Below are positions 31,001 to 59,244 of a stretch of DNA of 64,000 nucleotides, piece by piece; positions within the stretch are counted from its first letter, which is position 1; each line of letters begins with the position of its first letter. The notes below the pieces were generated by a model that saw only the letters and a list, made by a program, of their open reading frames with translations, was not told the origin of the DNA and did no database searches. Location: contig CM075104.1 of assembly GCA_037576195.1 (NCBI GenBank), forward strand, positions 19,236,211 to 19,300,210, read 5' to 3'. Both the position numbers and the translations under genes were made by a program. This DNA comes from Phytoseiulus persimilis (lineage: Eukaryota; Arthropoda; Arachnida; Mesostigmata; Phytoseiidae).

Positions 31001-34000
31001 ACGCGTATCTCGCTCCCCTTTCAGTGGAGCAGCTTTCTTGGCTTCACTAACTAAACTGACCGTGGTCACGACACGACGCATGGCCTCGTTGAGCCTGTTC
31101 CGAGCCGAGATCAACGGGACGGCGCGGCGTCGGACGAGAACGTTGGAGGAGGGACGAGTGATTAAGAAGAAGAACGAGCCGGTAGACGTCGGTGCTGCGT
31201 AGTTCACCCGGCGTTCTGATTTTACTCGCACGGACTCGACCGTGGGTACCTGTATTCAGGCTCGAAAAGGATCGTTCCACCGTCCTCAGGGCTCCAATCG
31301 ATGTTCGGCGACGAGCCCGATTCCAGGAATAGGACACCGCATAAGCGGGACACCTTTCGGCAAGCGCTCGGACTGGACATTTCGCTGATAACGGACCAGC
31401 GGTCGCGGCCAGCTTGTTGAACCCCGAGTCTCACCCGATATTGAACGCCACGGAGTCGCTGATATGCCGCCGTGTAGGGTGGAGACTGGTTGCGGTGATG
31501 ATCGCAACCGGAGCCTAATCGCATCTTTCATTGGTTCCGCTCCGGTTGCGGCATTTGTCAGACGCTGCACCACTCTCGTCCCTGGGTCGTCGTTTCCACC
31601 TGATGCTGCAAACGGCGGCGTGAGGAGAGGGGGGGGGGGGGAAAATCCAGCGTGACATCGACTCCCGACGTTGAATACTGAAAATCATCCGATGAACATC
31701 ATTGAAACGCAATCGTTGTTTCCTCGCTCCCAACATGATTCGGTTCTTCCGCAGGGTTTGCGATTGTACCAACCAACCGTTTCGGGACAGGAACCGAAAA
31801 ATACGTTTGCAGTGTGCCTCGATGTCGGTGCAGCGGGGAGTCCATGTGGTGAGAAGTGGTCGCCATCGTGAGGGGACGTCGCGGATAACCGTCTGTTGGA
31901 CTAGTTTGCGCGCTTGTTGAATACGCTCATTACTTCTAACAAGATCGTTATAGCAATCTTTGTGCTGGGTATGCGACAAGCGGCCTGTCCCAGTATTAAT
32001 TACGCCAAGTGGCGCACATCTAACCGCCAGTCAGTCTCTGCTTACATTGCTTCCAATGCGATAGCGGTGAGTGACGGGACTGGGGATTACGTCAAACGCG
32101 GTGTCGTCCGGCTACAGAACGGCGGACACCGTCGGTGCGGACCGCGGTCGAGAACACAGCAGCAAAGGCCCCAGTCAGTCGGTCGCTGCCCGGGGGCGCA
32201 ATGAGAAGTGTCCGCTGCTTAGTTCCAGCCGTAGTTCATGTCGGGGCGGGCGTTCGATCGCGAAAACCGCGGGGCGTTCGGAACGCGGGAAAGATAAAGA
32301 GCGAAGGATGAGGCTTTGGGAGATGGGATGAAGCGAATGCCTTCATGTCAAGTGGGCGTTTCTCCCCAACGAAATAGGAGGACCAGGCCGACGAGGGCGT
32401 TTCACGGCCTCGGGGAGTCCGTCGCCGTGCGGCCTTCCGATCCGATGGCCGCCGGTCGAGTGCTTCACGGACGGTCTGATGGAGATGAGATTAAAGGACG
32501 ACCACGATGAGAACTTATTGACCGAGGGAGAAAAAACGAACTCCCGGAGAAGCTTCATCGGTGGGGCTTATGTGGAGACAGCGTAATCAAGGGTTTGCCG
32601 AGCTCGCCGGGTTTCGGGCACAGCCGTTTTCAGGTTGTTAATTTTGAACACGATTTTCAGGAGTCTCGTAAAATATCGGTGATTAGAGAAGCTTGTTCCT
32701 CCGTCGACGACAGGATCCCCTCTTCGTTGGCTGTGGGCTAACGCTGGTTTCGCTTTCCAGGTACGATTCTACTGCCGAACCAAGACGTCTACGAGAACAT
32801 CCTCCGATATGCCGTGAAGAATTTCGACAGTCCCCTGTTCGACGTCCGACTGGTGACCATGAAACTCAGCAGCGTCGACTTCGTTCAGATCAATATGAAA
32901 GGTTTGTGCTGCTGTCTTCCTACATCCTTCCAACCCTCGCTCGGGTCGGGCAGTAGCTCCGGGAGCCGTTTACACATGTGGAATCGGTCCTTGGATGACT
33001 CCCAATCAAAAATCTTTGATTCGATTTCCTTCCTCTGCGATTGGGTTTCGTCCGAGGTCGACCTCCTGAAAATTTTCTTGGCCACGGTCCTGTGTCTCCG
33101 ATCATCACTGCCTGGACTTGAAATCATGCAAGGACTGATCTCCTTCCTCAATTTCTCCCGTGTAGTTGAAATCCCGTGAAATGTCCAGACACAGACGGGC
33201 TGCCCGCCCGTTAGAGATGCTCGAGTTCCGAAACTCCGTTTTCCTTGAGTGTTCGACACCTGCCTGTTCAGGAGGGCTCATCCGTCGCTGTAGGAGCCTG
33301 CTCGACGAATTGAGATCTCACGCTAGCCTTCAGGCCCGCGGTAAAACTTCGACCAAGTCCAGTAGTCCGCGCGGAAAAATCATCTCGTGTTCGAAGAATC
33401 TCTCCCCGAGCTCAGACGAGCAAGATGGCAGAGCCTGCCGGAAAACCGGTGGACAGACATTCGAGAGTGATATTCCGACGATTACTGCCGACTCAGAGCA
33501 TCTCACCCCTGAACGAGCGAACGTGTCAGTGAGTGATGGATGGTTCAGCACCATTCATTCCAACAGGAGGGTGTCATTCGTTCCCACCTTTTCCATATGT
33601 CAACGGTCGTCTGTGGTCGCTACGCCTCTCTATCGCCAAAGAACAGGGAAGCGCAGAGTGTGTCTATCGAGCGATGGACGGTCGTCCGTTTGGGAGTTAG
33701 ATCCGCGGGCCGGCGGAGGTCGAAAACAAAATAATCGGGTGGAAGACCCATTCATCCAGAGGGACTCGGCGGGCTGAGAGGAGTGTCGAGCGATGAATTT
33801 CCGAAATGGGGCCCAGCTTCACGCTACTTTTTCATTTCCCCCTCCCGCGACCCCTTCTCCTGCGGCTACTTTTTTTTCCGTGCCCACCTACTTCCGGTAG
33901 AAGGGAATTCGTTTCCCTTCCCGGGCATCTGGAGGGCGGAACGGAGTTTGTTCCGTTTAGACTGTCAAGCAAAGCAACCGGGCGTGAAAGCATAAGGAGA

Positions 34001-37000: not shown

Positions 37001-40000
37001 TGTGTCATTAACCCAGTCAGCCTGACTGGCAGCCATTGTTGGGAATACCGCGGCGGGAAGCCGTTGAGTCGGCGGGGATGACGGCCGTTTCGACTCGGAA
37101 CGATCCGATGATTCAGGACTGAATCCCGGAGAGGATGCATGCAGTTTTTCCGCCGTCGAGGACGAGGAAGTTGTCTGGTGTTGCTCGCATTCAGCATTTT
37201 TTGCGTTCTGATTGCTACAGAGCAACATCATCTCGCGCGCGAGTAATTTGAACGTGGAATTGATTGCTCAGACATGAATAATTGAGCATCTGTCGAAGGA
37301 TGCGCCGTCGTCAGACTGAGCCATGGAGTCTCTGTCTTTGAAGGAGTGAGAATAGACAACAACCCGGCGAGCTCATGACGGACGAGTCTGCGTTTACTTC
37401 ATCGCCATGACAGCACGTAGAACACCTCGCGATCGCTGGCGCGTTCTAGCCTTGGATGCTTATCGGTCTCGGATGTGAAATCGCGAGACTTCAATGGGAA
37501 CAATCGCGGTCCGGAAACTTGAAATGGCACTTCAGTTCATTCCGATCATGTTCATGAAAACTGCATTGGAACCTAGTATTCAAAGCAGATCGCAGCTCTC
37601 AGGAAGATAGGGCTCCTTGCTATTCACTCCTCGCGATTCGCATCAAGAAAGCCTTCGGTCTCCGGACTCGTTTACTTCAGAGCACCAGCTCGTCGAGAAG
37701 TACCATAACTTCCCGCAGTCGAGCGTGCACGCATCCACTCCATGGGAAAATGGACTTCATCGGCCAGCAGAAATGCAGATACAACCTCCGCCGCGAGGAG
37801 GGTCTCTCCTATATCGTGAAGATCGATTGAGATTAGCTGTTGACTGCATGACCAGCGTGATAGAGACCGAGTTCGCCAATAACTGACGCTTCTATTAAAC
37901 GGGCTCCCTTGAGTTTCGCGGCTTGTGCAGAGCTGCTTCAGAACCTGATGGAAGACGGTCGGCCTGGTATGACGACGGCGATCGTCGCTCTGCACATCAT
38001 GAAGATACCCTGCTGTTCTGTCGGGAGACCGAGAAGAGAGAACCAGCTCATCAAGAAGCGGCTGGCTGATGCATGCGGCAGACGGTTTGTTTGTTTGTCC
38101 GTTCGTTCGTTGTTCGCCAGCTCGGTTGGTGTTGTATCACTTCTTTTGTGGCTCTCGTTTGCTCATCGTTCTTTCATATTGTATCGCCTCCTCATTCCTC
38201 TAGCTTTGTATTCATATTACGAGGAGGACAAAAATTAACGCATTGTTGATCCGCTCCCATCTGACCAAACGACTGACCGACTTGGCTGGCTGACCGCTCG
38301 AGTCTGAATGAGCAAACGTAACGCACCGGCCCGAGCAGATTAATGAATACATGAAATGATATACGAGACAGATTCATTAATGACCCAGATGGATGGCGTA
38401 GGAGAGGGGCGGACCGTCCCTTCTCGCTCTTCCCGAGGTTGTTGACATCAATCGACCTTCCGATTGCCATCATCAGAGGGCGACCACGTGCGCGGTTGCC
38501 CAAACACAGTGTCCCCTGATTCTGTATCGTGAGCGTCCAAGATTCTGATACATAGACCAGGACAGACTGGGCAGATAGAGTCCTCGCTGCTCGTAAATCT
38601 CGAACATATTACAAGCTTGGAGTGGTATGTTAATCCTCCGTTCTCCGTATCGAGGAGCCAGACGAAAATAGATCGGGGTCGGCCGTTGCAATTCCATGTG
38701 TGAAATCTCGAGCATGGATGATGCGATCGTTGTGAAACGAGAAGAATCACCAACTCAACCGAAGAATGGCGCCACGCAGATCATCAGGTCACCCGCTGCG
38801 GGTGACATGTCGCTACATTGGGCGACTTGAGGATCGGCGAGGGGCGTAACGCCTCCCAACCCTCCTAGACCTCAAGGTTTGCTTCCGTTTTTCAGAGGCA
38901 ATCCAGAACTCCGGAGTGAAGGTTTCCGTAACGAAGAAGGTCAACACCGAAGCAGAGGCTAGTGATGCGGTTCTGGAACTGTCGTCGCTGGGTCGGCTCA
39001 AGCCCGAAAAGATAGAGAAGATCGTCCTAAACGTCAATCGACCCAGTTTGGCCAAGACAGTGCTGTCTGGAATGATCAGGGAAGTCAAGAGCTTCAAGAA
39101 CCTCAACACGCAGTTCATATTCGCGAACCCGGTGAGTAAAGGCACCGCGCTCTCACTTTCGGAAACCTCTCCTCGACCCACCTCAACCTTGGCCTCGTTC
39201 CTTGCTGACAACAGTCCCATGTCCATTTCGTCGATTAGCTAACGCATGAAGTTGACGGTCAGATTACAATCAACTCAGTTCATGAACGTTGCCCTCTCGA
39301 ACCAAAAGTTTCACGCTCCCTCGATTTGCGCTCTGGGTCTGCTTCTAACGGTGAATATGCGAGTTCGGAGCGACATACGGAGACAGCTCACGAGTCCGGT
39401 ACGTTCCCGAGAGGTTTCGGACTACCACTGGTCCCACCGGCCAGGGACGAAGAGGAACTCTAAAATGTGTTTATAGGAGGAAACGGTGGTTGAACGACGA
39501 GACGAGGGAGGAGACGTTTTTGTTCAAACACCGAGCGACCCCTCGCTCGGCCGAGCGACCACTGGTTTCGCATTTTTTCGGTCCTTTTTATCTCGGGTCG
39601 AGCGGTCTCTCGCCGCAGCTCCAACTGCCGCCCCGGTCGCGGTCCTGGCCTGTTCCTTTCTTGCCCGCAACGAGAACAGATTCAAAGTTTTTACCGCGCG
39701 GACCAAAGGATGGCCGCACGAGCACCGCAAGAGGCGATCGACGGGATCGAGAAGGACGACTTCGACGATGAGAATGGTCGGGCTTTCGTTCTGACTCTTC
39801 CTTGTCGGGATCGCGAGAGAAAACCACGGAGGCGGCCCTCTCGTGAATGCGGCTGTTCTCCCGCGGAGCTCCCACTCTCACAACGAACCTCGCTTCCAGG
39901 TATCCGATGACTTCTGGCAATACATCCGTTTCCGTGACGCCGGAAGCAGTCTGAACGTGACCGCCTTCCGGCTCGTGGATTCCGAGTTGCCGCACGTCAC

Positions 40001-43000
40001 TCGCTTCCACAAACAGATGATGCAGTTATCGTCCCATAGGTAAGCGATCGGCGCAATAAAAATCCCAGGAAATCGAGAGTGGCTCGATCCCTACCCGAGG
40101 CTTCGATCGAGGACTGCGAGTGAGACCTGAACACCTCCCGAAGTCTGGCAAGTCCGAGGAGGTCGAGTTGCGTTGTTCAGTTGAGACCTCCTGGGGCGCA
40201 TCGAGTCCGATGCTCGACTGAGATATTGAGACCGCTGGCACCGAGACTTTTGAGACTCGCATGGACTCTGCTGGGCGCATCGCGCTAATCATCCATCTCT
40301 AGTGTTCTTCAATAAATAAGAACCGATTTCCAGATCCCTGTTTCACAACCAAGGCACGCAATCGTACCTGTTCCTGGACGCGGTGACAGCGCTGCTCACC
40401 GGCTTCGAACGCGTGCTGAGAGAGAACCCTCGGCTTCTTGATAAGAACCTGCGCCACCATCCCGGATCGGTGTACTTCAACGGAACGAAAGGACTCGATT
40501 GCATGGACCAGTCGCGCTACTTCGAGCATGGCAAATTCCTCGCCGGCTTCATGAAAGACGTCAAAATACCTCAGGGCCAATCGGGTCCCGTCGAGTTCCA
40601 CAACAACGGCGAGAGAACGCAGCCGACTATAACAGTCATCCAAGGCTCTCACAAAGGACATGTGCGTCTAGGTACCTGGACCCCGAAGAAAGGACTCATG
40701 CTCGCCGACAAACCGGAAGCCCTGCCGCAAATAAAAGCCCCTGGAGCTATCACACCCGCCAAGGAACTCAGCGTCGGAAGTGTCTTGGTGAGAAACGCCG
40801 TTATCGCGACTTTCTTTTCTGGTGGGATCATGCTCTTCGGCCGGACAAATTGTATCTGGCAGAGTGGTACCGTTCAAAAATTCCGGAAGAGGCTGCACGT
40901 CTAATGCGGAGGGTGGGGGGAGGGGGGGGGAGGAGAGCTCGGAAGGACTCTTCAAAACTCTGGATATTCGTGATGGGGCGGGGCATATCCGTTTTCACGG
41001 GGGCTCCGGACACATCCCGGCAGTTTCGACGAACGCTTGCAGGAAGGGTTGAACGGGGCTATAACGGCCGTATCGGCAGCGAAGGCCTCGATTGCAGTTT
41101 TTCTCGCCGTCGTCTGCTACGGGCGGTCGTTGTGAAAAGTGGCGAAATGAAGTGCAGGGAGAGGAAAAGCAGGCCGTTTTCGAAACGTAGCATGACGGAC
41201 GGGGGGGACGGCAGATCCTGTGACTGGTTCGTGTTTGCGTACAACTGAAGGAGTTTTTTCCTCACGCTGGCTGGGCTTGAGCCTCGGGTGTTGTCGGCTT
41301 CGAGCTCTTGTCATAGGGTCTTTTGTCGCAAGTTAATCAAGCGGGCACATTGTCGTCTGCGTCGACATCGGATATTTGGGGAGAGCGCCGGTCGACAGTC
41401 AGGGACCCGATGCTCGGCACTGGGACACCGACAGCAGGAAGGTTCGGCTAATTGTATTTCGCTTTAATTTCCAGAACGTTCCGTATCTGATGCAACGACA
41501 ACCTGAGGGGGAGTTTTCCGGTTTTGTGCCAGACTTCCTAGAAGCTCTTTCGAACGTGGTTCCGTTTGCCTACAAAATCCAGGCGATCCGACACCGCGAC
41601 TACGGACGTCGTTCTGAGAATGGAACTTGGAGCGGATTGATGGCGGAAGTCGTGAACAAGGTAAGCGAACGGGTTCGACTTTCCTTTCTGCTTCCTCCTC
41701 TCTCACCCTCTCCCCGCTGGTGATCTCCGACGAAGAAGGAAAAAACAGGTCGGCGCAGCAAGATATTGAGCCGAGAGGCGACACGCGAGAAGCGGCCAGA
41801 ATCCGGGAATTGACGCAACGAGGGTGGCAAGTGAAACGACTTGGCAGCTTGAAAACACGTTATGCGGGGAGAAATCTCACGCAAGGAGCGAGTCCCGTGA
41901 GATGTGTCTCACGTGACCTGTCAGAGCTTGTCGAGTTGAAAAAACGGCTCGTCTCCCTCAACTGCATGGAATCCATGGGTAAACGTCCACCGTCTTCGCC
42001 AAAACTTTGCGGCAGCGCTGCGCATAGCTCTACTCTGGTGTTGAAACTTGCGCTCCTCCCGGACCATTACGGAGTCTCTTGTTGGAATGTTGTCGATTCG
42101 ATCAATGTCGTTGAATACCGTTCACGTCACTCCGAGAACCCAAGTCGCAGAGTTCGCTGATTCGTGTTCCATGGTGAAGGGGTTCTCTGGGGGTGCGCGG
42201 ATCGGTTCCTGCGCCGCGAGTCATGTGGTTTGCTTGCTTGATTTCCATAGCTCGATCCGGAATCGTGACGGCAGCTCGTGGGGATTAGAATGAAATCCCC
42301 TGGAACTGACGTCGAGTGTATGCCGTTGGCATCTCTCTCTCTCTCTAATACGCGCACTGAGGCGGCGACTGTCTCGGTTGTTGTGTTTCCGAAGCGGCTT
42401 AATTCGGTCAAAGCCAGTTGTGCGGTTGATCTCGGTCGATAGTCGGTCGACATTCGTCGTCCGTCGCTCGGACTCTCGGTTTGACCGCGGATTTTGAGTT
42501 GCAGTAGCCTCAAGCCGACTTTGTTAGTGGGCTTACAGTGTGGCCCAACCTGCCCCTGCCTCCCGCCCTGGCTCGTCGTCTCCAGGAAACTGGGCTAGAC
42601 GTTTGTGGAAACGTTGCCGGTGGAGAGCATTTTTCAGAAAGAAACATCGCTCCGATTTGTTTGAAATGGCGGAATTCTCGTGCCGCCAGCAGACTCGCCG
42701 AGTGTCGAGGGCACTGGAAGCATGAGATGGCGAACGATACGCAGCGCAGCCCTCCGCTGCGCTCGTCCGCTGTCCTTCCGGCCTTCCGCCCGGAGTGAGT
42801 TGCGTCACGCAGTGCTTCCTCCGTTCTCTACCGAACGAAACCAACCATCCGGCAAAGCCAGACGCATGTACAAGTGAACGACTGGCCGAATAGCTACGAA
42901 TCGTTCCGCGTCTCCTGCTCACTTAGTGGGGCGAAGTAGGCGAGGAAAATTGTGGAGCCCGACGAGTGGCGTTGGGCGACCGCAACACTGCACCGTTCTC

Positions 43001-46000
43001 TCTCCTGCTCGGGGATCTGAGGTCCGTATATAAACATCATGTTCATCACCAGCAAGATGGCTCGCTTCATCAGAATCCTCCCTGACTTCTTCCTCAATAA
43101 TGACTCTCGAAGGTGGCATCGTCAAAGATGACGAGGCATACAAGAGAGCGGAGATCAAGGACGTGGTACTGTGTGGCTCGCTGGTTCGTCGTTTGCCTCG
43201 ACCGATGCTTCGCAGCGTAACGGTGAAACGTTCCACAAAACCGGTATCCCCGGGAACCGATTGAAAGACCGACGTTCCCGCCGGCCGTGGATAAAACCTC
43301 CATCGACTTCAATCCCCCATTCCCTGTCAGAGGCTGGTCGGCGGTGTATGACCAGCGTAAACCGGTTCGTTTCGGCGGGTAATTTTTCGTGATGGACTTC
43401 GCTAGGGGAAGAATACAGGGTACTTCCTGAGGAATCACTCCAGAGTTGACGAGCGCGGAAGTACTTCTCGGATAATTATCTGGCAGAGCCACTACCGAGC
43501 CCGACGCGTGGCTTACTTCAGCTACTTTCGCCACTCAATCGTCCCTGACTCGGCGTCCTTCCTTTCGTTCATTTGCTCGTCCGCCCCTTCCTCGATGCCG
43601 AGGGTGTTTTTGCTGCTGCCGTCGCCGCCGTCGCTGCAGTGTGTACTCTGCACTCAGCTTGCTCTGAAAGGCAGGCCCGAAAGCAAGCACTGGACGTCCG
43701 ACGCATGCAATAAACTACGAGCCAGCAACACGTATGCGCAGTGAGAGCCGGTAGTAAGCTTTCAGGCGTGGACACAGTCACTTTTGCAGATGACGTATTC
43801 GAGTGTGCCATTACAGTTCCCATTCCTCACGTGTAATACATCAATTCTCGTGTGAATGGCCTCTCTGTTTCCACACCGTATGTTCAACCATAAACGAAAT
43901 CAACACTTCAGGGCAGCGTCACCTGTATCCGACAAATTCAGAGCTCCGGAGATTACCGTTTACCCTCTAATTGAAAGGCATACCTGTTTTTTTCTCGCCC
44001 TCCGATAGCCCCCAAGTTTAAATCAGACAAAAAACGATGATTCCAGATGGAAAAGACCTTCGTCTCGAGTGGGATCGATAACAGAATCCTACCAGCATGA
44101 GAGAGAACATTCCTGAAACATAGAATAGAGAAGCTGAACGGAATTCGATTGAATTCCAGAAATTCGAAATCGCAGTCGCGGACATGGCGCTCACGGTGGA
44201 CCGACAGGAAGCCGTGGAATTCACTCAACCGTTCTTCGTCGATGATCTAGCCGCGGTGATGGCTCGCTCAACACCTGCAGGTGAGCAATCTGCGCTTCCT
44301 GTTTGCCTTTCCGCTGAGTCCCGGTCCCCAAGTCCTTCATTCTTGTCTTCGAGGCTTTTCACCTTAGATTTTCTGATTCCTCCAAGCCGGAATCGTTGCC
44401 GACCGCGAACGCCTCTTTTGGCTGCCATCTTTCTCCGCAGGCTGCATCCTGCCTGTCGGTCGGCAATCTCTCCTAGTTTCCGCGCTCCCGCGGCTGGAGC
44501 AGAATTTCGTTAGAGTAAAACCCCGCTGGAAGATTCTTTCTCTCAAGACGAAAATTGCAGGGCGTCCGTCGCTTTCGTTCTTCTTCGTGCGCGTGTTCTC
44601 CTGGCAGCTGTGGCTGTGTATCCTGGCCATCCTGCTGGTGTTCGTCACGTTCACCTACATCCTGAACTACATGTCGCAGACTCGTCTCCGCAACAGCGCT
44701 GAGAAAAATCGTCTCGCGGGTCTTATGTGGTACACGTTTGCGTCACTCTTCGGTCGTTCTCTCGGACCGCACGTCAAGTGAGTCGATTCCAGGAACTTTC
44801 CGGCACCGTTAATTATAGAGCTTCACAAAAATTACTCCCTTGCAATCCATGAATGTATTGCTCGGAGCGAGAGGGCAGTCTGAGCCAAAGAAGAGGGAAG
44901 ATCCTGGGTCTCTCGGCGAATATTTTCCTTCAATCCAGTACCCTGCCACTAACGAACGAAGCCTTGAGGTCGTGGGTCAATATTTTCATTTGTTTGACGT
45001 AGGCGGATTTAGATTCGGTTACGTCGGTTCGTCTTTCTCCTCGTTTCGTCAAAACTGGGGGGAGCTGTCTTTCTTGGAATGTTTCCCTCCGTATCGCCAC
45101 GTATTAATTTCGAGAAGGTGCTCCGTTGATCAAAGTGGCTAGCGAACCGCTCTAGCGGGCATGGCCCCTCTGAAAAGATCTTCTTTCTCGGAGTCTTAAC
45201 GGACCCCGGACCGGGCAATCTATTTGCAAGGAGTTTCTCGATATTCCTCCACCGACCTGGAGCTTTCCCGCCCCGAACTCGCGGGAGCTCTGCTTCCTCC
45301 CTCAAGATTTGAGACGGAGCATGTAATCAGTGCCTCCGATTCATGCAGTTCCGGCGAATCCAAAATTAACATTCCTGTTCTGGAGAGCACAGATGATTTT
45401 ATCGTGTTTAGTCCTCTCGATGAGCGGCCTTCACTCGGAGAACCTAACTTTCACACCAGCCATTGGAGAAAATGGAACGAGTCGGCGATTTCTTGACAAC
45501 TCTTCCGACTCGGTTATGACACCGTTGTTATTGAGTTGTCGGTCCCCTGCTGCGCTTGAACGCTGACAAAACGTTCCGCTCGGTGTTTGATTCAGTGAGT
45601 TACTGCGAGCGTGTAACAGAGAGTTTGAGTGACAGGGCGAGCATTCGAGCACGAGTGGTAACAAGAGAAACTCGATCGTGTTTGTTGTTCCTTCGGCCTC
45701 AGATTTTGGCTCCGGTCGAGTCTGCCAACGCAAACACCACATACAAATATTTGCCAACTTTTTCCGTTGTTTTGTTGGCCGGGGCGGCTCTACGCAGTTT
45801 GCCAACTGGCTTATTGAATTGGCCCCGATACAAATCTCTACGACCCTGCCGACGAATCCGTCGGAGCGGAGCGGCTTGGGAACGCGGCTCCGGTGCCGTT
45901 TCCTTCGCTATCTGGGCACCCCCTCCTTCTCGCCTGAGTTTTGGAGAATCGTTCCCGATGAGGCCTCCCCGGCGACGTTCTGGACGTCACTGACCGGTGG

Positions 46001-49000
46001 AACTCGATGTGGACGGTATTTGAGAGTTTTCAGCTAATTCCCCTCATTTCCGGAAGCAGTGTCGCCGAGAACGTGACTTTGGCTGCGGCAAATTGAAATC
46101 CTCCCTCCAGCCCTGTCGGTCATGCAGATGTATACAATCGCTCGTGTGGGGTCGCTCCGATACTTGTGAGCTCACTAACAAGGGGTTCGCTTACAATTGC
46201 AGCTCGAAAGCCTACAAGCTCCTTCTCTTGTCGTGGTGGCTGTTCCTGGCCGTAATTACGGTGACGTACCTATCGGCGTGCATTGCGTTGCTTCAGGCGG
46301 TTCTCTTCGGCAGTGGGCCAGACGTTTTCAACAGGAACAAATTTGCTCGGGTGAGTAGGTCGCTCCCTCCCTCCTTACCGCCCGACTGCCCAGCCGCCTC
46401 TGAGGAGCGGGTCTGGGTGACTGCGTAAGATGTCTGGCTCGGTCGCGAAATCGTTCGTTCGGTTGCCTGCACGACGATCGACGGTCAGAGTATAGCTCGC
46501 CAGATGATTATACAACAACAACAACAACGACGACGGCGGCGACAGCGACAACATTGAGAACGGCGATGGCGGCCCCAGCGTCGCCAGGACCCGTTGCAAT
46601 GAGCGCAGGCTCGAGTCTCGTGTCAATTCGGGGGTAATGGAGCCCGTAACGATATTATGTACGGGCCTCTCTTAGACCTTCTCAAGTCCTGGCTCTCGGT
46701 TTGTGTTGGTAGCTTGCGGCGGGCGATACGCAGCTGCAGTTAGTGTTTCGCCTTTTTTGCGCCAACAGCTTCGAAGGACTTCCGACTCCTAAAAACCAGG
46801 GGAATTTTATGTTAAATGGAGGGAAGTGGCGGATGGAGAAGACGCCTGCAATGACGCGTCGCATACGAGTGCATCGTTAGCTTTCTGGGGGGGTCGCGTA
46901 AGTGGCTCAGTAGGTGGGGAGCTCTTCCGAAGAACGAAACGCCCGAGAAATATGAGAAAAACAAAAGGAGTATAGCAGGCAAGACGAGGATATGACGAAG
47001 GATGGGGAATAAACAACGTGCTCCGAGGAGTTCGCTGAGCTCGAAGAGTTCCCGGAAGCGCATGACGGGGCGAGGAGAAGTTCCCCGTTTCTCTGAAATA
47101 GCTTCATCCCGAATGCGGGACGGAATGACCTCCTTCCGAGACTGACGTCGCGCTCGAGCCCCCATGCGACGGCAGTAGGGGCCCCCTCAAAAACGACGAC
47201 AGACCCCCAGGATCGGTTCCTGACGCTCGTTGTTATTCTGTCTGAACACAGCGTTCGTCTCGGAACAAACTGCGGCTGGGCTAACGTGTTTCTTATGTTT
47301 TTCGCTCTCTCTTTCTTGTTTCATGCGATTCTGCTGCTTTTCAACGGCCGTGCTCATGTATAATAACAGGATGCCGCAGACGGAGTTGTCGACGTCGGAT
47401 ACATGCGGTACGATGCTGTCGAGAAGATGATCAAGGTAAGCGAGCAGTCAGACATGCAGGAGAGGGGGAAGATCGTGGTGAAGAAGAGGCAACAGAGTGG
47501 CAACAAAGTGGGCAAACGGTCCGGAGAGTATGATAAGGAGGAACAGGAGCAGGAGGAGTCGTTGCTGCAACGAGATGAGATGAGCAGCCTGATGGGAATC
47601 AGACAAACGATGGATCCCCGTGAGAAAGCTCCATGTGCTCTTTGACGGCGCACAGCCTCAAACGGCGTAGGGGTGGGCGATGGAGGAGGGGAGAGGCTGG
47701 TCAACATCACAACTTCCCTCCGATGGCCGCATCCACATCTTACGTCCTGGTGATCCACGCATTTCTCCTCTCCTGATTCGCCGCACGTGGAACTGAAACG
47801 CTCTCATGGAGCGTCGCATGTCCACTCTGTCCTCCGGAACCCAGCGCAATCATCGTATAAATTGGAGGCTCCTCTGCTCTCGGGGAGAGTCCATCGAACT
47901 GCGGGCCCTTGATTGCTTCTCATCGAGTAACCGGTGTACGTTTATCTTTCCGCCTCATCAGAACCAGGGCGACAACCAGCTTTCCCAGTATTCACAGCTC
48001 TTGAACTCCTCGCGCGCTCGTGTGATGTCTTCAGTCGCTGAAGGCATTCGCAACGTGGGTCCGAACTTCGCTTTTCTCGGTAAGTAGTTGCGTAAATCGC
48101 GCATACTGCGGTCAGCTCGGAGCGAACGCGGTGCTGATGGCGTCAGTGGAGGTCGCCTTCAACCGCGACGACTTCATTTGGGGTGTATTAGATGGGCGAA
48201 GAATGAGTCGGGAGCTGACAAGCTAAGTGGCCCTCGGACGGGAAGTTTTTTGCTGGCTACTAAGCTTCCGTCGGGCGGCTCGGTAACCGACCCACCAACT
48301 GAGTGGGCCTGTGGGGTGGTAACGGAGGCAGGAGAAGACAGTTGCGAATAATGAACGAATAACATCATTGCGATGAAGTTCATTCCATCCTCTTTTTTCA
48401 GGGCTCAAGTCGCAAGTTGACTCGTATAATCAGAACGATTGCGCCGTTAGATCCTACACCCTCATCCCGCAGTTTGCCCAGTACGCTATCGTCATGCCAA
48501 AGATGTCACCCTATCGAGATATGTTCAACCAGGGTATCGAAAAACTGCGCGAATCAGGTGAGTTCCGACGCGATTTTTCGTTATCAGCACGATTCTCGCG
48601 AAATCAGCGCCTACGTGGAGTCATGCTTCTTCGCCTCTCATGTCGAGCCCTGTGACATCGCGGCAGTCGCGTGGAGTTCCGAATGCGGAGCCGAAGCTTG
48701 GGTCTTGCCACCGATTTGGCGTCGAAACCTGGGTCCGAGAACTCGGATAATAGTATTGCGTGTTGCTCTTATGCCCCGGGTTCTCTAACCGCCAGGAAGG
48801 TATTTTCATCTCGAATCTCTCGCTCTCCTCGCTGAACGAGCCCCACAAGCGACTGAAGCACCACTTGTAACCCCGAAGAAAGCGTGCTTGAGGGCTGAGA
48901 ACAGAAACCGGAGAACTCGGGGTGGAGGAATGCTACGCGCTCCACGAGTGAAACGTTTTTCCCTCCGAGATTCGATCATTGCCATTGTCTCATTTTTCCA

Positions 49001-50590
49001 CATGGGTGACTGGGAGTTCGCTGACTTGGTTGGATTGTTCGAAGCATTCCCAGGATCGGACTTTCGAAGGGAACAATACCGGGCGCTGCGGAGCATAATC
49101 CAAGTCCAGAACTGCTTCTAGCGTTCAGAGAGCTCACGGCAACAACCTATCAACCTGAGTCGTAAGACACGTCGTTGCCGGCCCTTCCATTGAAGGTTTT
49201 CCTCCTCCGCTTGCAGGTGTCCTCGCCGACCTCAAGGAAAAGTGGATAGACACTTTGGTACGTTGTCCTCGTGAAATTGAGGTTCTCGAGATTCCTGCAC
49301 CGATTAAGTACACCGCCCTGTGCGGGATGTTCATAGTCGTTCTCGCCGGTTTCATTCTGGCACTCGGTGCCGGTGTGGTCGAGTTTTGCTGGTGCACGAA
49401 GAGAGATTCGAAAAGTGAGGTGAGTTGGCTGTGAGTGTGGTATTTTGGAACTGCCCCGCAAGTGGCTCCTCTTTCGGTGATAATATCGCGAGCCAGCGGA
49501 TTCGAGATCGTTGCACGGCCAGAGCTAGACTCAGCTGCGCCGCATTTTTCCGTCTCCGTTGAACTTGTGGTATCTCTTCACTCTCGTCCGTTCCTTGGCT
49601 TCCCACGATGCTCCCTCTCCCAAACACTCCATATTCTTGTTCTCTTCTTTCTTCTCTCCGTCACCTGTTATATTCAGATCACTCATCTTGCTAGTTTCCT
49701 TTGATCATTACTGGAGTCGCCATTTCCCACCCCTCTTCAATCAAGCTAATTTCCGACTTCATCCATCAATATCCTGTTCTCTCATGCTGCTCCCCACACG
49801 TTCCCGTCTCGATCAACATTCCGCGGTTTTCCACGCTGCTCAATATTCCTCGTTTTGGACCCGGTTCTCGTTCTGCTCTTCCCAAGAGTTTCCTCGATTC
49901 CCGTTGTTTTCGCGACCTCTTCCAGCCCGGTCCCTCCCTTTGACTTCGACTCGTTTTTCCGATTCTTCCGAACGCTTCATAGCTGGATCGGCTCTCGACC
50001 GTGTAACAGTTGGGAACCGCGGATCGGAATCCGAAAATCTGTCTGGATCGGACCGATCCGGCAGAAGATGTTTCCCGATGTAGATTGCCAGCTGGGCCGA
50101 CTCCCCGACTAGCTTGCGTCGAGAGATAATGGTATGACAGTCACGATCATTGCACGGATTTCAGAAACCAATTCAGAAAGTGATGTGGGACAAGACACAC
50201 GATTCGCTTAAGCCGTTCACCCAAAAGGACCCCGCTTTGGTAAGTGAACTGCTGGCGACTAAAAACTTTTTCTCTTTTTCGAATTAGAATGACGTTCATT
50301 CGCTGCTCGGCTCGCTCTTCCGTCCGTCCCCCCGACCGACCACCGAATCGCACTCCGAGTCTCGGTCGTTCGGTTCTCGGCGAGGAAGAAAAAAAACGTT
50401 TTTGGATCTCTGGGGTCGGCTTGGGTTATCGAAAAGCGACGGCGCGCGGAACGGAACACTCTTCCAGACGTGCTCCCCAACATTAACTCCGTTCCTCTTG
50501 TTTTCCAATTCACAGGGAAATGACGAAGAAATGACTCTGAATTCGAGTCAAGCTAACGGAACTCCCAAACAAGTCCGGGTCATGGTTTAA
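3991..50590 (+). CDS. Divergent AMPA/kainate-type ionotropic glutamate receptor subunit, 16 exons, 897 aa (whole gene span)
   Basis: Joined exons are 3991-4084, 32761-32901, 35805-36068, 38896-39131, 39900-40039, 40334-40787, 41475-41660, 44160-44280, 44561-44777, 46203-46350, 47370-47435, 47962-48079, 48402-48557, 49217-49419, 50165-50239 and 50516-50590. Phases agree throughout and no internal stop occurs. Order: signal peptide (about 1-20), ATD (about 25-430), S1 (about 436-545), M1 (560-582), pore loop M2 (about 600-614), M3 (about 629-652), S2 (about 660-800), M4 (about 812-835), cytoplasmic tail (836-897). The length matches AMPA/kainate subunits (about 880-910 aa). Such subunits form tetrameric cation channels at the plasma membrane, usually in neurons. 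Disulfide pairs C80-C348 (ATD) and C742-C797 (S2) are preserved. Sequons lie at N264, N341, N492 and N704. Four of six standard glutamate contacts and the M3 gate motif are replaced, so glutamate gating is doubtful. It could instead be an ATD-bearing variant ionotropic receptor (IR). Family assignment is secure; subclass is not. Confidence 0.93.
4738..4753. repeat. Poly(G) run of 16
   Basis: Homopolymer in intron 1. Similar runs occur at 15582-15594 (13 G), 31629-31641 (13 G) and 57841-57853 (13 C). Confidence 0.9.
5792..5833. repeat. Three-copy 14-bp tandem repeat
   Basis: Three adjacent units, GACGCTCAACGGCT, AACGCTTAACGGCT and GACGCTCAACGTCT, with 1-3 differences between units. It lies in intron 1. 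A related array in the opposite orientation lies at 13321-13362. Confidence 0.8.
10201..10230. repeat. GGGC/GGTC tetranucleotide array
   Basis: Four GGGC-type units pass directly into GGTC units. A similar switch between units is seen in the other arrays of intron 1. Confidence 0.85.
12649..12687. repeat. GAAC/GGGC/GAAC tetranucleotide array
   Basis: GAAC units, then GGGC units, then GAAC units again, in intron 1. Confidence 0.85.
13321..13362. repeat. Three-copy 14-bp tandem repeat, inverted relative of the 5.8 kb array
   Basis: Units are GGTTAGCGCGGGGC, GGTTAGCGCGTAGC and GTTTAGCGTCAAAC. Reverse-complemented units of the 5792-5833 array read GTTAAGCGTTAGCC, matching the third unit at about 10 of 14 positions. 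It lies in intron 1. Confidence 0.65.
17855..17870. repeat. Poly(T) run of 16
   Basis: Homopolymer in intron 1, the only long A/T run in the window. It is not flanked by an obvious target-site duplication or a tRNA-like body, so it is not called a retroposon tail. Confidence 0.85.
18048..18090. repeat. Interrupted GA dinucleotide repeat
   Basis: Three blocks of AG repeats broken by AAGC and AACA, in intron 1. Confidence 0.9.
22731..22764. repeat. GGTC tetranucleotide array
   Basis: About seven perfect GGTC units followed by GGGC units, the longest uninterrupted tetranucleotide array in the window; in intron 1. Confidence 0.9.
24831..24862. repeat. AACC/AGCC tetranucleotide array
   Basis: Five AACC units followed by AGCC units, in intron 1. 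A near-identical composition recurs at 55354-55379. Confidence 0.9.
25876..25898. repeat. CT dinucleotide repeat
   Basis: Uninterrupted TC/CT repeat of about 11 units, followed directly by GGTC units; in intron 1. Confidence 0.9.
27962..27981. repeat. GAGC tetranucleotide array
   Basis: Five GCGA/GAGC units in intron 1. Confidence 0.85.
28766..28785 (+). other. G-quadruplex-type motif
   Basis: Four runs of four or more G separated by single bases (GGGGGCGGGGCGGGGAGGGG). It fits the standard four-run G4 pattern on the plus strand of intron 1. Folding or function is not shown by the sequence. Confidence 0.6.
32761..32901 (+). CDS. iGluR exon 2: start of the amino-terminal domain
   Basis: Residues 32-78, entered in phase 1 after the acceptor TTTCCAG and left in phase 1 at AAAG|GTTTGT. 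It contains LLPNQDVYENILRYAV, the counterpart of the first ATD strand and helix in AMPA/kainate receptors. It ends just before the conserved VCQ segment of exon 3. The donor is weaker than those of most other introns (GTTTGT rather than GTAAGT or GTGAGC), but the reading frame continues cleanly. Confidence 0.9.
32902..35804 (+). other. Intron 2 (2,903 bp)
   Basis: GTTTGT donor, TTGCAG acceptor. It contains a 203-codon open frame near 33.2-33.8 kb with no recognisable domain or splice context, taken as chance. A degenerate GGAC/GACC-type simple repeat lies at 35157-35202. Nothing else was recognised. Confidence 0.85.
35805..36068 (+). CDS. iGluR exon 3: ATD lobe 1
   Basis: Residues 79-166. 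It opens with VCQMMREGVLAFLVAP, matching the family pattern KVCQLLxxGVxAIFGP; C80 is the first cysteine of the conserved ATD disulfide. Further on are the HFHIPLAT and YRWSQVAYVYDD segments, equivalent to the conserved IPHI and W..(F/V)AYLYD stretches. Acceptor TTCGTTGCAG; donor CTAG|GTGAGC, phase 1. Overall similarity to kainate/AMPA ATDs is clear even though individual residues have drifted. Confidence 0.92.
36069..38895 (+). other. Intron 3 (2,827 bp)
   Basis: GTGAGC donor, TTTTTCAG acceptor. No coding segment, RNA gene or distinctive repeat was recognised in it. Confidence 0.85.
38896..39131 (+). CDS. iGluR exon 4: ATD lobe 2
   Basis: Residues 167-245. It begins EAIQNSGVKVSV, the ATD lobe-2 helix and strand, and ends FKNLNTQFIFANP, which matches the conserved hYIFTxxD segment at the ATD core. 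A Lys/Glu-rich helix occupies the middle. Acceptor GTTTTTCAG; donor CCG|GTGAGT, phase 0. There are no internal stops and the frame agrees with both neighbours. Confidence 0.9.
39132..39899 (+). other. Intron 4 (768 bp)
   Basis: GTGAGT donor, CTTCCAG acceptor. No separate feature was recognised. Confidence 0.85.
39900..40039 (+). CDS. iGluR exon 5: ATD lobe 2, NVTAFRLVD segment
   Basis: Residues 246-291 and two bases of codon 292. It contains NVTAFRLVDSE, closely matching the NxTGFRIxx strand of AMPA/kainate ATDs, and carries an N-glycosylation sequon at N264. An FW pair at 250-251 and a helix ending FHKQMMQ follow the family pattern. Acceptor CGCTTCCAG; donor AG|GTAAGC, phase 2. Confidence 0.9.
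40334..40787 (+). CDS. iGluR exon 6: end of ATD and linker to the ligand-binding domain
   Basis: Residues 292-443, the largest exon. YLFLDAVTAL corresponds to the conserved AALxYDAVxxx helix. C348 (in GLDC) is the partner of C80. Then come the GKFLAGFM helix, GPVEFHNNGERT, equivalent to the family pattern (L)TGxIxFNxxGxR, and VRLGTWTPKKGL, equivalent to xxIGTWNPxxGL, which closes the ATD. A Pro/Lys linker (416-435) leads to the first S1 strand, ELSVGSVL. A sequon lies at N341. Acceptor GATTTCCAG; donor TTG|GTGAGA, phase 0. Confidence 0.93.
40788..41474 (+). other. Intron 6 (687 bp)
   Basis: GTGAGA donor, ATTTCCAG acceptor. It contains a G-rich run at 40910-40932. The long open frames across its 5' half are extensions or shadows of exon 6. 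Confidence 0.85.
41475..41660 (+). CDS. iGluR exon 7: ligand-binding domain S1, first part
   Basis: Residues 444-505. NVPYLM corresponds to the EEPYVM strand. FSGFVPDFLEALSN corresponds to (Y/F)EGYCxDLLxELA, with the usual Cys replaced by Pro462. RDYGRR corresponds to GKYGAR, and Y486 is the conserved Tyr that stacks over the ligand. ENGTWSGLMAEVV corresponds to xNGxWNGMVxELI, with a sequon at N492. Acceptor TTAATTTCCAG; donor AAG|GTAAGC, phase 0. Confidence 0.94.
41661..44159 (+). other. Intron 7 (2,499 bp)
   Basis: GTAAGC donor, AATTCCAG acceptor. It splits S1 between the NGTWSG and FEIAVAD segments. A short CT tract lies at 42332-42346. No coding segment was recognised. Confidence 0.85.
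44160..44280 (+). CDS. iGluR exon 8: ligand-binding domain S1, glutamate-contact segment
   Basis: Residues 506-545 plus one base. FEIAVADMALTVDRQEAVEF lines up without gaps on the family segment ADIAIAPLTITxxREEVIDF. R520, which binds the ligand alpha-carboxylate in all glutamate-gated members, is kept. The Pro and Thr whose backbone and side chain hold the amino and carboxylate groups are replaced by D513 and A515. TQPFF then matches SKPFM. Acceptor GAATTCCAG; donor GCAG|GTGAGC, phase 1. Confidence 0.93.
44561..44777 (+). CDS. iGluR exon 9: M1 helix and pore loop M2
   Basis: Residues 546-617 and two bases of codon 618. WQLWLCILAILLVFVTFTYIL (560-580) is M1, matching the family pattern YExWLCIxxAxxxVS. 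An Arg/Lys loop leads to the re-entrant pore loop LMWYTFASLFGRSLGP (600-615). Counting from the conserved Trp (W602), the Q/R-site position is Gly610, followed by Arg611. The MQQG tip of AMPA/kainate channels is absent. Acceptor AAATTGCAG; donor AA|GTGAGT, phase 2. Reading one codon further would give AAG then TGA, which confirms the splice. Confidence 0.92.
44778..46202 (+). other. Intron 9 (1,425 bp)
   Basis: GTGAGT donor, ACAATTGCAG acceptor, lying between the pore loop and M3. No coding segment or repeat was recognised. Confidence 0.85.
46203..46350 (+). CDS. iGluR exon 10: M3 helix with degenerate gate motif
   Basis: Residues 618-667. KLLLLSWWLFLAVITVTYL is the M3 entry, with the invariant WW pair (629-630) in place. 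The following TYLSACIALLQAV (639-651) replaces the near-invariant SYTANLAAFLTV gate; only Tyr640, Ala646 and Leu648 are identical. A short linker then enters S2 (FNRNKFAR, counterpart of IxSxDDLA). Acceptor TTACAATTGCAG; donor CGG|GTGAGT, phase 0. Confidence 0.92.
46351..47369 (+). other. Intron 10 (1,019 bp)
   Basis: GTGAGT donor, AATAACAG acceptor. It contains a CAA/CGA trinucleotide-type tract at 46512-46552. Nothing else was recognised. Confidence 0.85.
46512..46552. repeat. CAA/CGA/CGG trinucleotide tract
   Basis: CAA units grading into GAC and GGC units within intron 10. Confidence 0.8.
47370..47435 (+). CDS. iGluR exon 11: 66-nt exon, start of S2
   Basis: Residues 668-689. GVVDVGYMRYDAVEKMIK aligns with the S2 stretch xIEYGxxxxGSTxxFF. 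The Ser-Thr pair that binds the ligand gamma-carboxylate in AMPA receptors falls at A683 and V684. Acceptor TAATAACAG; donor AAG|GTAAGC; both boundaries are phase 0, so skipping this exon would keep the frame. The acceptor lacks a strong pyrimidine tract, but the protein join DAADGVV is as expected for the family. Confidence 0.87.
47436..47961 (+). other. Intron 11 (526 bp)
   Basis: GTAAGC donor, CTCATCAG acceptor. An open frame reads through the donor for about 70 codons (Lys/Gln/Glu-rich). It is rejected as coding because S2 homology resumes only in exon 12. Confidence 0.8.
47962..48079 (+). CDS. iGluR exon 12: S2, middle part
   Basis: Residues 690-728 plus one base. QYSQLLNSSRARVMSSVAEG matches the xMWxxM....VxxxxxxEG helix-turn of S2, and FAFL matches YAFL, which immediately precedes the ligand-binding Glu in typical receptors. 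Here the next two residues are G729 and L730 (split into exon 13), so that Glu is missing. A sequon lies at N704. Acceptor GCCTCATCAG; donor CTCG|GTAAGT, phase 1. Confidence 0.88.
48080..48401 (+). other. Intron 12 (322 bp)
   Basis: GTAAGT donor, TCTTTTTTCAG acceptor. No separate feature was recognised. Confidence 0.85.
48402..48557 (+). CDS. iGluR exon 13: S2, SPYRD motif
   Basis: Residues 729-780 plus one base. LKSQVDSYNQNDC takes the place of EStxxxYxxxxxC; C742 is the first cysteine of the conserved S2 disulfide, while the ligand-contact Glu position is L730. AIVMPKMSPYRDMFNQGIEK matches the very conserved GIGxPxGSPYRDxxxxAILxL. Acceptor TCTTTTTTCAG; donor TCAG|GTGAGT, phase 1. Confidence 0.94.
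48558..49216 (+). other. Intron 13 (659 bp)
   Basis: GTGAGT donor, GCTTGCAG acceptor. Searched by eye for an alternative exon like AMPA flip/flop; none was found with matching phase and S2 similarity. Confidence 0.8.
49217..49419 (+). CDS. iGluR exon 14: end of S2 and M4 helix
   Basis: Residues 781-848. VLADLKEKW is the conserved GxLxxLxxKWW end of S2 with a single Trp, and C797 pairs with C742. YTALCGMFIVVLAGFILALG and following residues (812-835) form M4, then EFCWCTKRD. Cysteines C838 and C840 directly after M4 are typical palmitoylation sites. Acceptor CCGCTTGCAG; donor GAG|GTGAGT, phase 0. Confidence 0.94.
49420..50164 (+). other. Intron 14 (745 bp)
   Basis: GTGAGT donor, GATTTCAG acceptor. 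The middle is pyrimidine-rich (TTC/CTC runs at about 49600-49960). No coding segment was recognised. Confidence 0.8.
50165..50239 (+). CDS. iGluR exon 15: cytoplasmic tail
   Basis: Residues 849-873: a basic, proline-containing segment with no known domain. The acceptor is CGGATTTCAG and the donor TTG|GTAAGT; both ends are phase 0, so it could be skipped without a frame change. It is included because its splice signals are strong and it joins exons 14 and 16 in frame. Tail sequences of this family are poorly conserved, so similarity cannot confirm it. Confidence 0.72.
50516..50590 (+). CDS. iGluR exon 16: C-terminus and stop codon
   Basis: Residues 874-897 and TAA. The exon is hydrophilic (acidic start, then Ser/Asn/Gln-rich) and ends VRVMV. 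A hydrophobic residue at positions 0 and -2 fits a class II PDZ-binding tail, as at the end of GluA2. Acceptor TTCCAATTCACAG, phase 0. That the sum of all exons is a multiple of three supports this as the terminal exon. Confidence 0.75.
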   Translation, partial: GNDEEMTLNSSQANGTPKQVRVMV

Positions 50591-52955
50591 GTCTTGTGCG
50601 GCTCCGCCTGGTCCGAGCTCCGCTCGATCGACTCCTTCTACACCGCCCCTGACTTCCATCGAGTTCCCGTCGAATTCAATAGCCCCCAATTTCATGTCTA
50701 GATCGACTTCATCATCTGTCAAAAGCAAATGTTCATCTCATCAACTGAACCACTCATCGGCATGAATTTTCGGAAGCACTTATCGATGAGTACCCACGGT
50801 CACGTAGCAGCCGAGTGTTCCAGGATCGCCTCCCGGGACCTCTCCCGCCATGGTCGCCCGTTCCCATCTTTCTGTCTCGAAAGTATGCTCCTCGCGCAGA
50901 GCCCACCTATAGGATAAAACGAGCTCTGCATCGTTGAATCCACGAGAGTTAGTCGTTGATGACGTGTCGTTTTAGCCCACCTCTTCTGGATTTTTGAGAC
51001 AAGCAACCACGGAGAACGCGCCAAACAGATCAAGTTGCAGCGATCCCTGATTCCGCCAACATCGCGGTTGTGGAGGAAAAACGCGGTCGTCAGATGATAT
51101 TCCTTCTTGATGAACTCCGATTAGTTCTATTCGGCTTTCCTGCTGAGTTTGTGTCTCGAAGTGTCTCCGAAAATCGCTTGTCAGTGGTAGATTCAAAAGT
51201 CAGAGTGGAACTCTATCGACTCCGGGGTGTCCGCGCGATGGAAGTGCTGTTCTGATTATGAGGTCTTTCGTGATTCTCTTTCACATCGACGCTCAGGACA
51301 CTTTGGGCGTCAGGGCCGGAGCGTTGGGTCGCAGCGCGGACCAGCATAATTCAACTTCTTCGCTATGGACGCTTTGGAGGTTCCGCTGTAAATACATTGT
51401 GAGAAATATTTCAAGAGCGGGTTCGCGGAGAACGTCTCGGAGATCTTCGTGGAGGGAGAACCCATTCGAAAAATAATCGTTTCGCCGAAAGGAAAGAATG
51501 TGGCAGCGGAGAGCTCGGACCGCCTCAGACTCTCGGTGATTCCGGAGCGCGGATTCGACTCCAAAAGAATGGAGGAAACTCCGTTGGAAGATGATCTTTG
51601 AGGATTTCCACTCTGCTGGGAGCGGAACTTCGCTGCTCCCGTGTCAATGTCCACAGAAATTCGATTCGGGACCGACGTCGGCTTCAGAATCGGTTCCCTG
51701 CGTTCTAGTCTTGGCGTGCGTACGCGAGAGATGAATTCCGAAAAACGATTCATTCCCGTTTTCGAGCGTCCGATAAGAGCCGTTCATGGCAAAAAGCGGG
51801 AGAAAGTGGAGCGAATCTCCACATTCTCACGGCTCCAATCACCGGCCATATTTGCATTTCATCGGGCCGGCAGAAGGAAGAAATTTGTTGCCGCCCTCGG
51901 ACTGAGGCGCGTAGTGTGGTCCAGCGAAGCCCCGCCCCGACCGGCGCTCGCCGTACTGAAGGGCCCATAGGCTTTTACGATGCCCCGTCAGTGGAATTGC
52001 CATATTTTTCTAAAAATGAATAGTTGAACTCGTGTTGAGGGGCTCTCTAAAATGTGTATAAACGAATCCGGTGAGAGGCAAGGAACACGGAGCATTCAAT
52101 AGCGAATGTGAGCAACGTCGAACCACCACGTATCGAGAGAGGTTCTCGTCAGCCCCTATCTCCCTGATTAAAATGAGTCATTCGATCTCAGAATTTCCTG
52201 GAGGGTTCCGAGACCCAGTTCCGAAACGAAAAGCGTCCAAAATCTTTGCGACTTTATTCCTTGAAGCCCGTGGTATTTTCTGTTCGGATCCTGGTGGTGA
52301 GTCAGGGGCTAGCGGAAACTCCATCATCACAGTATCATTGTACAAAGTTTCGCCGTCTTACAGGCTCGATAAATCTCATATAAACTATGGTGAATAAGGT
52401 GATATTGACCCGGGCGAGACTTTCGTCCAAACTAACCATCTGAAAGAACGAGTGGAGGACTTAATCTGAACTATGTAAATATGAATATTTCTTAGCTGTC
52501 CCCAATGCGGAAAACAATGCGAGCGAAAAAAGAAAACTTGTTGAAACTGATTCGAGACGATGGAAAAGGAAAACTCGAGGGTATGTGTGGGTTCACGTTA
52601 TGGATACGTTCATCGGGGTGTGTCTGTGTACGTCGACGTGTGCCCACTTCTGTCAGCGTGTGTCTATAGGGTGTGCGTGAGTGCTGTGTGAAAACGATCA
52701 TTCGATCAATTTTCTCGATTTGATGGTGAGGATCGAACGGGATTCTCCCACATGATCTCCATCCTCCAGAATCGTCGTCGTTACGGGGGCCCGGACGTGT
52801 CTGTACGGCGTCTTTTTGTTGAACGATTGATCGCTTCAGTGAGTCGAAATCAATCACCCAAATTACAGATGAAGATAACGTAACATAACTAATAATATAA
52901 ATAACTTGACAACTTTGTGAATATGGTTCAATAAATGGAACTTTTGTCGTGCCAT
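50591..52955 (+). other. Presumed 3' UTR of the receptor mRNA
   Basis: It runs from the stop codon to just beyond the AATAAA at 52930. The last few hundred bases become A+T-rich compared with the surroundings, as 3' UTR ends commonly are. No reading frame in it resembles a known protein. Its extent is an inference; an earlier ATTAAA at 52167-52172 could give a shorter transcript. Confidence 0.4.
52930..52935 (+). terminator. Candidate polyadenylation signal AATAAA
   Basis: A canonical hexamer, preceded by an A+T-rich stretch (52878-52925) and followed within 20 bases by T/G-rich CTTTTGTCGTG, as expected of a cleavage region. It is the first exact AATAAA seen after the TAA at 50588-50590, giving a 3' UTR of about 2.4 kb. 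Confidence 0.45.
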
Positions 52956-55353: not shown

Positions 55354-55379
55354 AGCCAGCCAGCCAGCCAACCAACCAG
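55354..55379. repeat. AGCC/AACC tetranucleotide array
   Basis: Four AGCC units followed by AACC units in the downstream flank, the same two units as the intron 1 array at 24831 in reverse order. Confidence 0.85.
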
Positions 55380-59000: not shown

Positions 59001-59244
59001 GGGCATGTCTTTCCAGATTAGGGTGCACCGTACGCCTCGCGGGGTGCATAGCCGATACCTGATCTAGGAGTCGACCCGCTCCAGGGCCGATCAGATGGAT
59101 CGTAACTCTGATGAGAACGCTGCACAAAGTTGCTCCTCTCCTGCGCGGCCGGGAAGACACTACAAAGATCTTTACGTGATACTCTACTCTCGGCGAGCAG
59201 ATTCTCTCGAATCCCAATCGAATTTTGACTTCGCATGCTTGCAG

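Follow-up and report, generated by a model that had tools for sequence, protein, structure and literature searches.

How an ionotropic glutamate receptor (iGluR) can persist in a genome once the residues that hold glutamate have gone is the question raised by an iGluR-type gene at 32761-49419 on the + strand of a 64-kb stretch of DNA from the mite Phytoseiulus persimilis (contig CM075104.1, positions 19,236,211 to 19,300,210, assembly GCA_037576195.1), hereafter called the window. The original prediction for this locus, an open iGluR with an amino-terminal domain (ATD) that lacks the canonical glutamate contacts, was borne out: the gene has a 13-exon open frame, an ATD recognised by Pfam and, like a tandem paralogue, Leu in place of an acidic residue at position 705 (positions given in what we take to be the numbering of GluA2). 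On balance, the pair is best regarded as subunits resembling ionotropic receptors (IRs) which stem from the non-NMDA lineage, have lost the canonical grip on amino acids and would take part in heterotetramers.

Gene model and domain architecture

The gene was spliced by hand and comprises at least 13 exons with GT-AG borders throughout and an open frame of 816 whole residues. The span 44160-48557, in which the gene had first been noted, lies within it and corresponds to exons 7-12, but the ATD, the start of segment S1 of the ligand-binding domain (LBD) with its Tyr, the last Cys of segment S2 and the membrane segment M4 are situated outside. The exons are as follows.

32761..32901, + strand, exon A: first ATD exon found, from GT-AG borders and frame; the weakest exon, with 39% identity to the paralogue model, 36 codons
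35805..36068, + strand, exon B: ATD with its first Cys (KVCQMM); six-frame PF01094 match at C4:19272011-19272259
38896..39131, + strand, exon C: ATD; 78% identity to the paralogue
39900..40039, + strand, exon D: ATD (SLNVTAFRLVDSE); 89% identity to the paralogue
40334..40787, + strand, exon E: end of the ATD with its second Cys (GLDCMDQ), linker and first S1 strand; PF01094 match at C4:19276566-19276853
41475..41660, + strand, exon F: S1 with Tyr at the Y450 position (RDYGRR); PF10613 80.8 bits and alignment
44160..44280, + strand, exon G: end of S1 with D at P478, A at T480 and R at R485; splicing and alignment
44561..44777, + strand, exon H: M1 and the pore loop, where the Q/R site has G and the next residue is R (FGRS); splicing and motif comparison
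46203..46350, + strand, exon I: M3 with TYLSACIAL replacing SYTANLAAF; splicing and alignment
47370..47435, + strand, exon J: start of S2 with A/V at S654/T655 and D at 653; splicing and alignment
47962..48079, + strand, exon K: S2 to NFAFLG; splicing and alignment
48402..48557, + strand, exon L: S2 with L at E705, Tyr at Y732, first S2 Cys and SPYRD; splicing and alignment
49217..49419, + strand, exon M: end of S2 (second S2 Cys) and M4, ending at a donor; splicing and spliced aligner

A spliced aligner supplied with the protein of this gene returned identical borders, except that its first exon opens with the first whole codon, 2 bases further on; this is a check of consistency and not independent support. 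Support independent of the hand splicing was obtained from the paralogue and other receptor genes, each modelled from its own DNA for the comparison of introns: the LBD introns of the paralogue are identical (all 7 coincide with introns of the gene), and other mite receptor genes have four LBD introns in common with it. The model of exon M stops at a donor site, so that another exon should follow; five candidates of 45-53 amino acids were found for it and none was chosen. A search of 8000-32700 for the first exon with start codon and signal peptide, based on a start codon, a hydrophobic stretch and a phase-1 donor, yielded four rows from two start codons (a narrower search gave one), none with a lead of 29-31 residues and none convincing. 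The product of 897 amino acids first proposed was not upheld by the model of 816 whole residues, in which the first exon is without a convincing candidate and the last is not settled; the residue numbers used in that proposal equal those of the model plus 31.

S1, pore and S2 are found in one chain with an ATD ahead of S1, as in the iGluR superfamily. Pfam matches to the protein were all above cut-off, with Lig_chan-Glu_bd (PF10613) at 80.8, PF00497 at 50.8, Lig_chan (PF00060) at 43.9 and, for the ATD, ANF_receptor (PF01094) at 73.9 bits over residues 41-363; the ATD alone matched that of GluA1 with E 8.3e-11. The Cys pairs KVCQMM/GLDCMDQ of the ATD and NQNDC/VRCP of S2, which presumably form the two extracellular disulfides, are present together with SPYRD in both the gene and its paralogue.

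Binding site, gate and tandem paralogue

Contact residues were read from a MAFFT alignment of 27 receptors. Thirty regions of the genome were examined, and the paralogue and 20 others entered this table, while 9 short or very divergent ones were omitted; counts for other mite genes refer to these 20, some PF00060 places such as C1:30253406 not being included. At Y450, P478, T480, R485, S654, T655, E705 and Y732 the gene has Y, D, A, R, A, V, L and Y, which agrees with the residues formerly aligned by eye (Y486, D513, A515, R520, A683/V684 and L730). Neither a gapped alignment nor an alternative exon, the two ways in which Pro, Thr and Glu might have been regained, brings them back. Counted by eye, the distance between the 'AF/AY' that precedes 705 and the S2 Cys, and likewise that between 478 and R485, is the same as in C2_42.62, and DVGYMRYDAVEKM contains neither Ser nor Thr, so that no shift of gaps can recover the AMPA residues. 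A profile scan of both strands of the whole window revealed no second S1/S2 exon above background; with a profile made without the gene and its paralogue, the best nearby segments outside exons were 49562-49588 (score 34) and 43302-43349 (32), compared with up to 35 elsewhere in the window.

The canonical glutamate contacts are thus absent, as had been claimed, but the statement that most contacts were lost was too strong, as AMPA receptors had been taken as the yardstick. Eight of the 20 other mite genes also have Asp at P478, and Glu705 is kept by 7 of these; the residue is common among mite non-NMDA genes and was probably inherited. GluK2, a glutamate receptor, has Ala at both T480 and S654 in chain 4uqq and likewise in 9c5y and 7f56; 5kuf, which we take to be an engineered GluK2 variant, has Thr and Ser. 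Val at T655 is shared with GluD2 and with GluN1, which binds D-serine or glycine. Since D478, A480 and A654 are found in mite genes keeping Glu705 or in GluK2, they are not counted as losses, and by this comparison the telling changes are those of E705 to Leu and of T655 to Val. Of the 16 other mite genes that can be read at position 705, 14 have an acidic residue (Asp or Glu), whereas an IR93a-like gene has Ser and C2_8.92 has Ala. The amino-acid backbone is reported to be fixed by Arg485 together with the acid at 705 (PMC6307864); both copies retain the Arg and have Leu at 705.

Among the other genes, C2_8.92 (C2:8922.3-8924.1k), with its Ala at 705, groups with C3_4.53 (C3:4527.3-4529.8k), which has Leu at the Arg485 position (support 85/89), and no PF01094 match is listed near either.

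Gate and pore are altered as well. The gate motif SYTANLAAF reads TYLSACIAL in the gene and LYVSAFVAI in the paralogue, and the Q/R site is occupied by Gly (FGRS) and Cys (LCRS), respectively, each followed by Arg, in contrast to Gln-Gln at these two positions in the AMPA and kainate references of the table. Three more divergent iGluR genes, at C2:36889-36892k, C2:44084-44092k and C2:51731-51735k, show an altered SYTANLAAF and keep Arg485 and Glu705; PF01094 matches lie 2 to 27 kb upstream of them without joining a gene model. Alongside the pair, these genes point to a group of iGluRs with altered gates in this genome.

A six-frame search of the whole assembly (181 Mb in 127 contigs, of which four of 28 to 55 Mb hold 174 Mb) detected one close relative of the LBD, the paralogue, which lies on the same strand about 100 kb downstream (LBD at C4:19384440-19393672). 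It has a Pfam-recognised ATD (59.7 bits) and shares 59% identity with the gene over 794 codons without a stop codon in either. Nonsynonymous divergence (dN) is 0.33 and synonymous divergence (dS) about 2.5, a saturated value which makes the ratio a rough one. With both frames open and dN far below dS, the view that the gene is not decaying was confirmed, and the protein sequence of the pair appears to be under selection. Asp478, Arg485, Leu705, Tyr732, the four Cys, SPYRD and the pore Arg are common to both copies, and by parsimony the acid at 705 would have been lost before the duplication. Retention of D513, A515 and L730 by related species had been proposed as support for a new specificity; in the paralogue, the single relative compared, D and L are kept, but Pro stands for A515. 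The ATD exons C and D (78% and 89% identity; paralogue part C4:19381018-19381487) are more alike between the copies than exons F to M (38-63%). Recent gene conversion was rejected as the cause, with dS there still at 1.6 and 1.1; judged by protein identity that is high although synonymous sites have diverged, these two exons are taken to be the most constrained part of the ATD.

The rest of the window, with a G+C content of about 54%, contains five short tandem-repeat rows, no RNA families and no tRNAs. Seventeen other open frames in 1-32700 and 49500-64000 reach at least 170 amino acids, and the 10 longest gave no Pfam family.

Descent, working and rival readings

Intron positions carry the argument on descent. 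Four of the eight LBD introns of the gene match those of C2_43.22 in place and phase, which are all four that C2_43.22 has, a score equalled by random placement in 2 of 100,000 draws; four also coincide with introns of C2_42.62, C2_49.33, C2_31.65, C2_36.89 and C4_12.53. The IR93a-like gene shares one of the eight and the NMDA1-like gene none. From these positions we conclude that the pair is of non-NMDA (AMPA/kainate) origin, and its likeliest form would be kainate descent, from the expansion of kainate receptors reported for arthropods (PMC6307864).

In the proposed working, each copy would be a four-domain subunit whose clamshell keeps the Cys pair and the carboxylate-binding Arg485, has no acidic 705 to hold the alpha-amino group, and is joined to a gate and pore with rewritten motifs. 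The presence of the ATD suggests that it is through this domain that a heterotetramer with other subunits may be assembled. Canonical closure of the clamshell around an alpha-amino acid would not be expected where 705 has no acid and 655 is Val or Pro, and neither would a response to glutamate, though Arg485 may still hold a carboxylate. The subunit could be silent to amino acids and tune gating and ion flow, or it could respond to a carboxylic acid or to some other ligand outside the alpha-amino acids, and its role would be sensory or modulatory; given the altered gate and the pore Arg, a modulating subunit seems likelier than a stand-alone channel.

Several observations weigh against this reading. 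Trees were calculated from 24 sequences (three more rows of the 27 being dropped) and from 17 without long-branch genes; in C2_49.54, an AMPA/kainate-type gene at C2:49541-49549k with one stop codon in S2 of its spliced alignment (pseudogene or alignment error), the stop was set to X, and this model may be wrong. The two copies group together with 100/100 support on a long branch, and the pair is not placed: all 12 trees of the first set lie inside the 95% set of the approximately unbiased (AU) test with p from 0.056 to 0.677, and all 7 of the second are kept with p from 0.321 to 0.554. In the first set, union with the well-behaved AMPA/kainate receptors alone reached p 0.108 and was excluded by bootstrap proportions from resampled log-likelihoods (bp-RELL) and by expected likelihood weights (c-ELW), and it reached 0.509 in the second; in the first set, values were 0.171 for NMDA receptors, 0.528 for AMPA/kainate receptors with divergent mite genes and 0.677 for C2_36.89, with those not named here or below lying between the extremes. 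As for introns, IR25a shares three of the eight, kainate-type C2_37.05 only two and the partial C2_49.54 none. Nor do the copies have one conserved pocket in common, as the paralogue has Pro480, Val654 and Pro655 and no Tyr at 450; since the rest of the pocket thus differs between the copies, a silent or re-purposed site appears favoured over one fixed new ligand.

A possible alternative, which deserves a smaller share of belief, is an orphan chemoreceptor, a ligand-gated channel with a pocket of its own, where Arg485 would bind a carboxylate and Asp653 or a hydrophobic wall of Leu705 and Val655 would select a ligand other than an alpha-amino acid. It fits Arg485 and Tyr732 in both copies and, in the gene itself, Asp653 and the hydrophobic residues at 655 and 705, but residues 480, 654 and 655 differ between the copies, one of them is without the Tyr of Y450, and the gate is altered. 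Two IR and two non-NMDA iGluR transcripts were reported as highly expressed in the sensory forelegs of Tropilaelaps (PMC6520597), but no link leads from the gene to these transcripts; for Dermanyssus, no IR or iGluR transcript was reported as significantly enriched in forelegs (PMC7578799), and neither data set bears on the gene.

Rather unlikely is the proposal that the pair founds a chelicerate class of full-length, ATD-bearing, ligand-silent subunits, dominant modulators which would assemble by the ATD with other iGluRs or IRs and in which Leu705 would block closure on an amino acid and the filter Arg would lower calcium flow through the heteromer. An ordinary glutamate receptor with a variant pocket, comparable to GluK2 with its two Ala residues, is improbable: D478, A480 and A654, three of its five changes, do occur with an acidic 705 elsewhere, but the gene has no acid there, Val at 655 and a rewritten gate.

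That the gene is the mite orthologue of the IR co-receptors IR25a or IR93a is very hard to maintain. The AU test keeps unions with the IR93a-like gene (0.497), with IR25a (0.056, and 0.321 in the smaller set) and with both (0.166), and the three introns shared with IR25a are matched in 162 of 100,000 random draws. However, the genome contains a separate IR25a-type gene at C1:30237854-30240118 (AERETVVDFTVPYYD, SYTANLAAF, Asp705) and a separate IR93a-like gene at C1:30245921-30247624 with a divergent gate motif, both named from motifs which we take to be diagnostic; their modelled LBD parts share a strand and are separated by about 6 kb. The IR25a union was excluded by bp-RELL and c-ELW in the 24-sequence set, and the recognised ATD of the gene contrasts with TmIR93a of another mite, reported without one (PMC6520597).

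A delta-type receptor deserves scarcely any credence. GluD2 is the best match in the PDB (E 1.3e-47), shares Ala-Val at 654/655 and is kept by AU (p 0.112 and 0.518), but GluK5 follows at E 2.3e-43, with GluK2 also among the best solved relatives, the Asp705 and SYTANLAAF of GluD2 are missing, its union with the pair was excluded by bp-RELL and c-ELW in the 24-sequence set, and a search for delta receptors in arthropods is reported to have found none (PMC6307864). A pseudogene or decaying copy, to which the long branch and the missing first and last exons might point, is most improbable in view of 13 GT-AG exons in an open frame, an open paralogue with the same LBD introns and dN far below dS.

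Comparison with known receptors

The preferred reading, of IR-like subunits within the non-NMDA lineage, bears on the origin of IR chemoreceptors and on a stepwise loss of the ligand by synaptic-type receptors while the ATD is kept. The pair is a candidate intermediate for testing the order of such losses: Asp478 seems to have been inherited from other mite genes, and Leu705, the rewritten gate and the pore Arg to have arisen afterwards. Should the LBD bind nothing, or something other than an amino acid, caution is due where mite iGluR genes, 34 of which were credited to one species (PMC5467014), are counted as glutamate receptors. As 65 IR genes were credited to each of two predatory mites, for N. 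cucumeris by Pfam domains and similarity (PMC6902594), orthologues may already be catalogued without comment. ATD-bearing mite iGluRs without these residues are not described in the titles and abstract openings of the open-licence literature, among the matches listed. Such losses are known from other animal receptors, which makes the mite pair a modest novelty.

Like the protostome IRs (IR25a, IR93a and variant IRs), the gene lacks some of the glutamate-interacting residues, the absence of some or all of which in the LBD is the reported ground for separating IRs from iGluRs and describes the gene in this broad sense (PMC2924276); its gate diverges as in the IR93a-like gene. Unlike them, it has a Pfam-recognisable ATD, reported among fly IRs only for IR8a and IR25a (PMC2924276), and shares more introns with AMPA/kainate genes. 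The likeness to arthropod IRs without an ATD, which had been drawn originally, overlooks a closer precedent: the pair of Arg485 and acidic 705 is reported as lost in 28 of 122 iGluRs of newly defined metazoan groups, chiefly class Phi of amphioxus and NMDA-Cnidaria, and SYTANLAAF as weaker in some Phi and all Lambda members (PMC6307864). These belong to other lineages, Phi being reported as lost in protostomes (PMC6307864), and the mite gene differs in keeping Arg485. GluD2, reported to be selective for D-serine and glycine (PMC10861852), resembles the gene in Ala-Val at 654/655 and in Arg485, but has Asp705 and SYTANLAAF. With the mite kainate-type genes C2_42.62, C2_43.22 and C2_49.33, each with a PF01094 match upstream, the gene shares the order S1-pore-S2, four LBD introns, Asp478, Arg485, Tyr732 and the S2 Cys, whereas it differs from them in the lack of Glu705, of Ser/Thr at 654/655 and of SYTANLAAF, in the Arg after the Q/R site and in its long branch.

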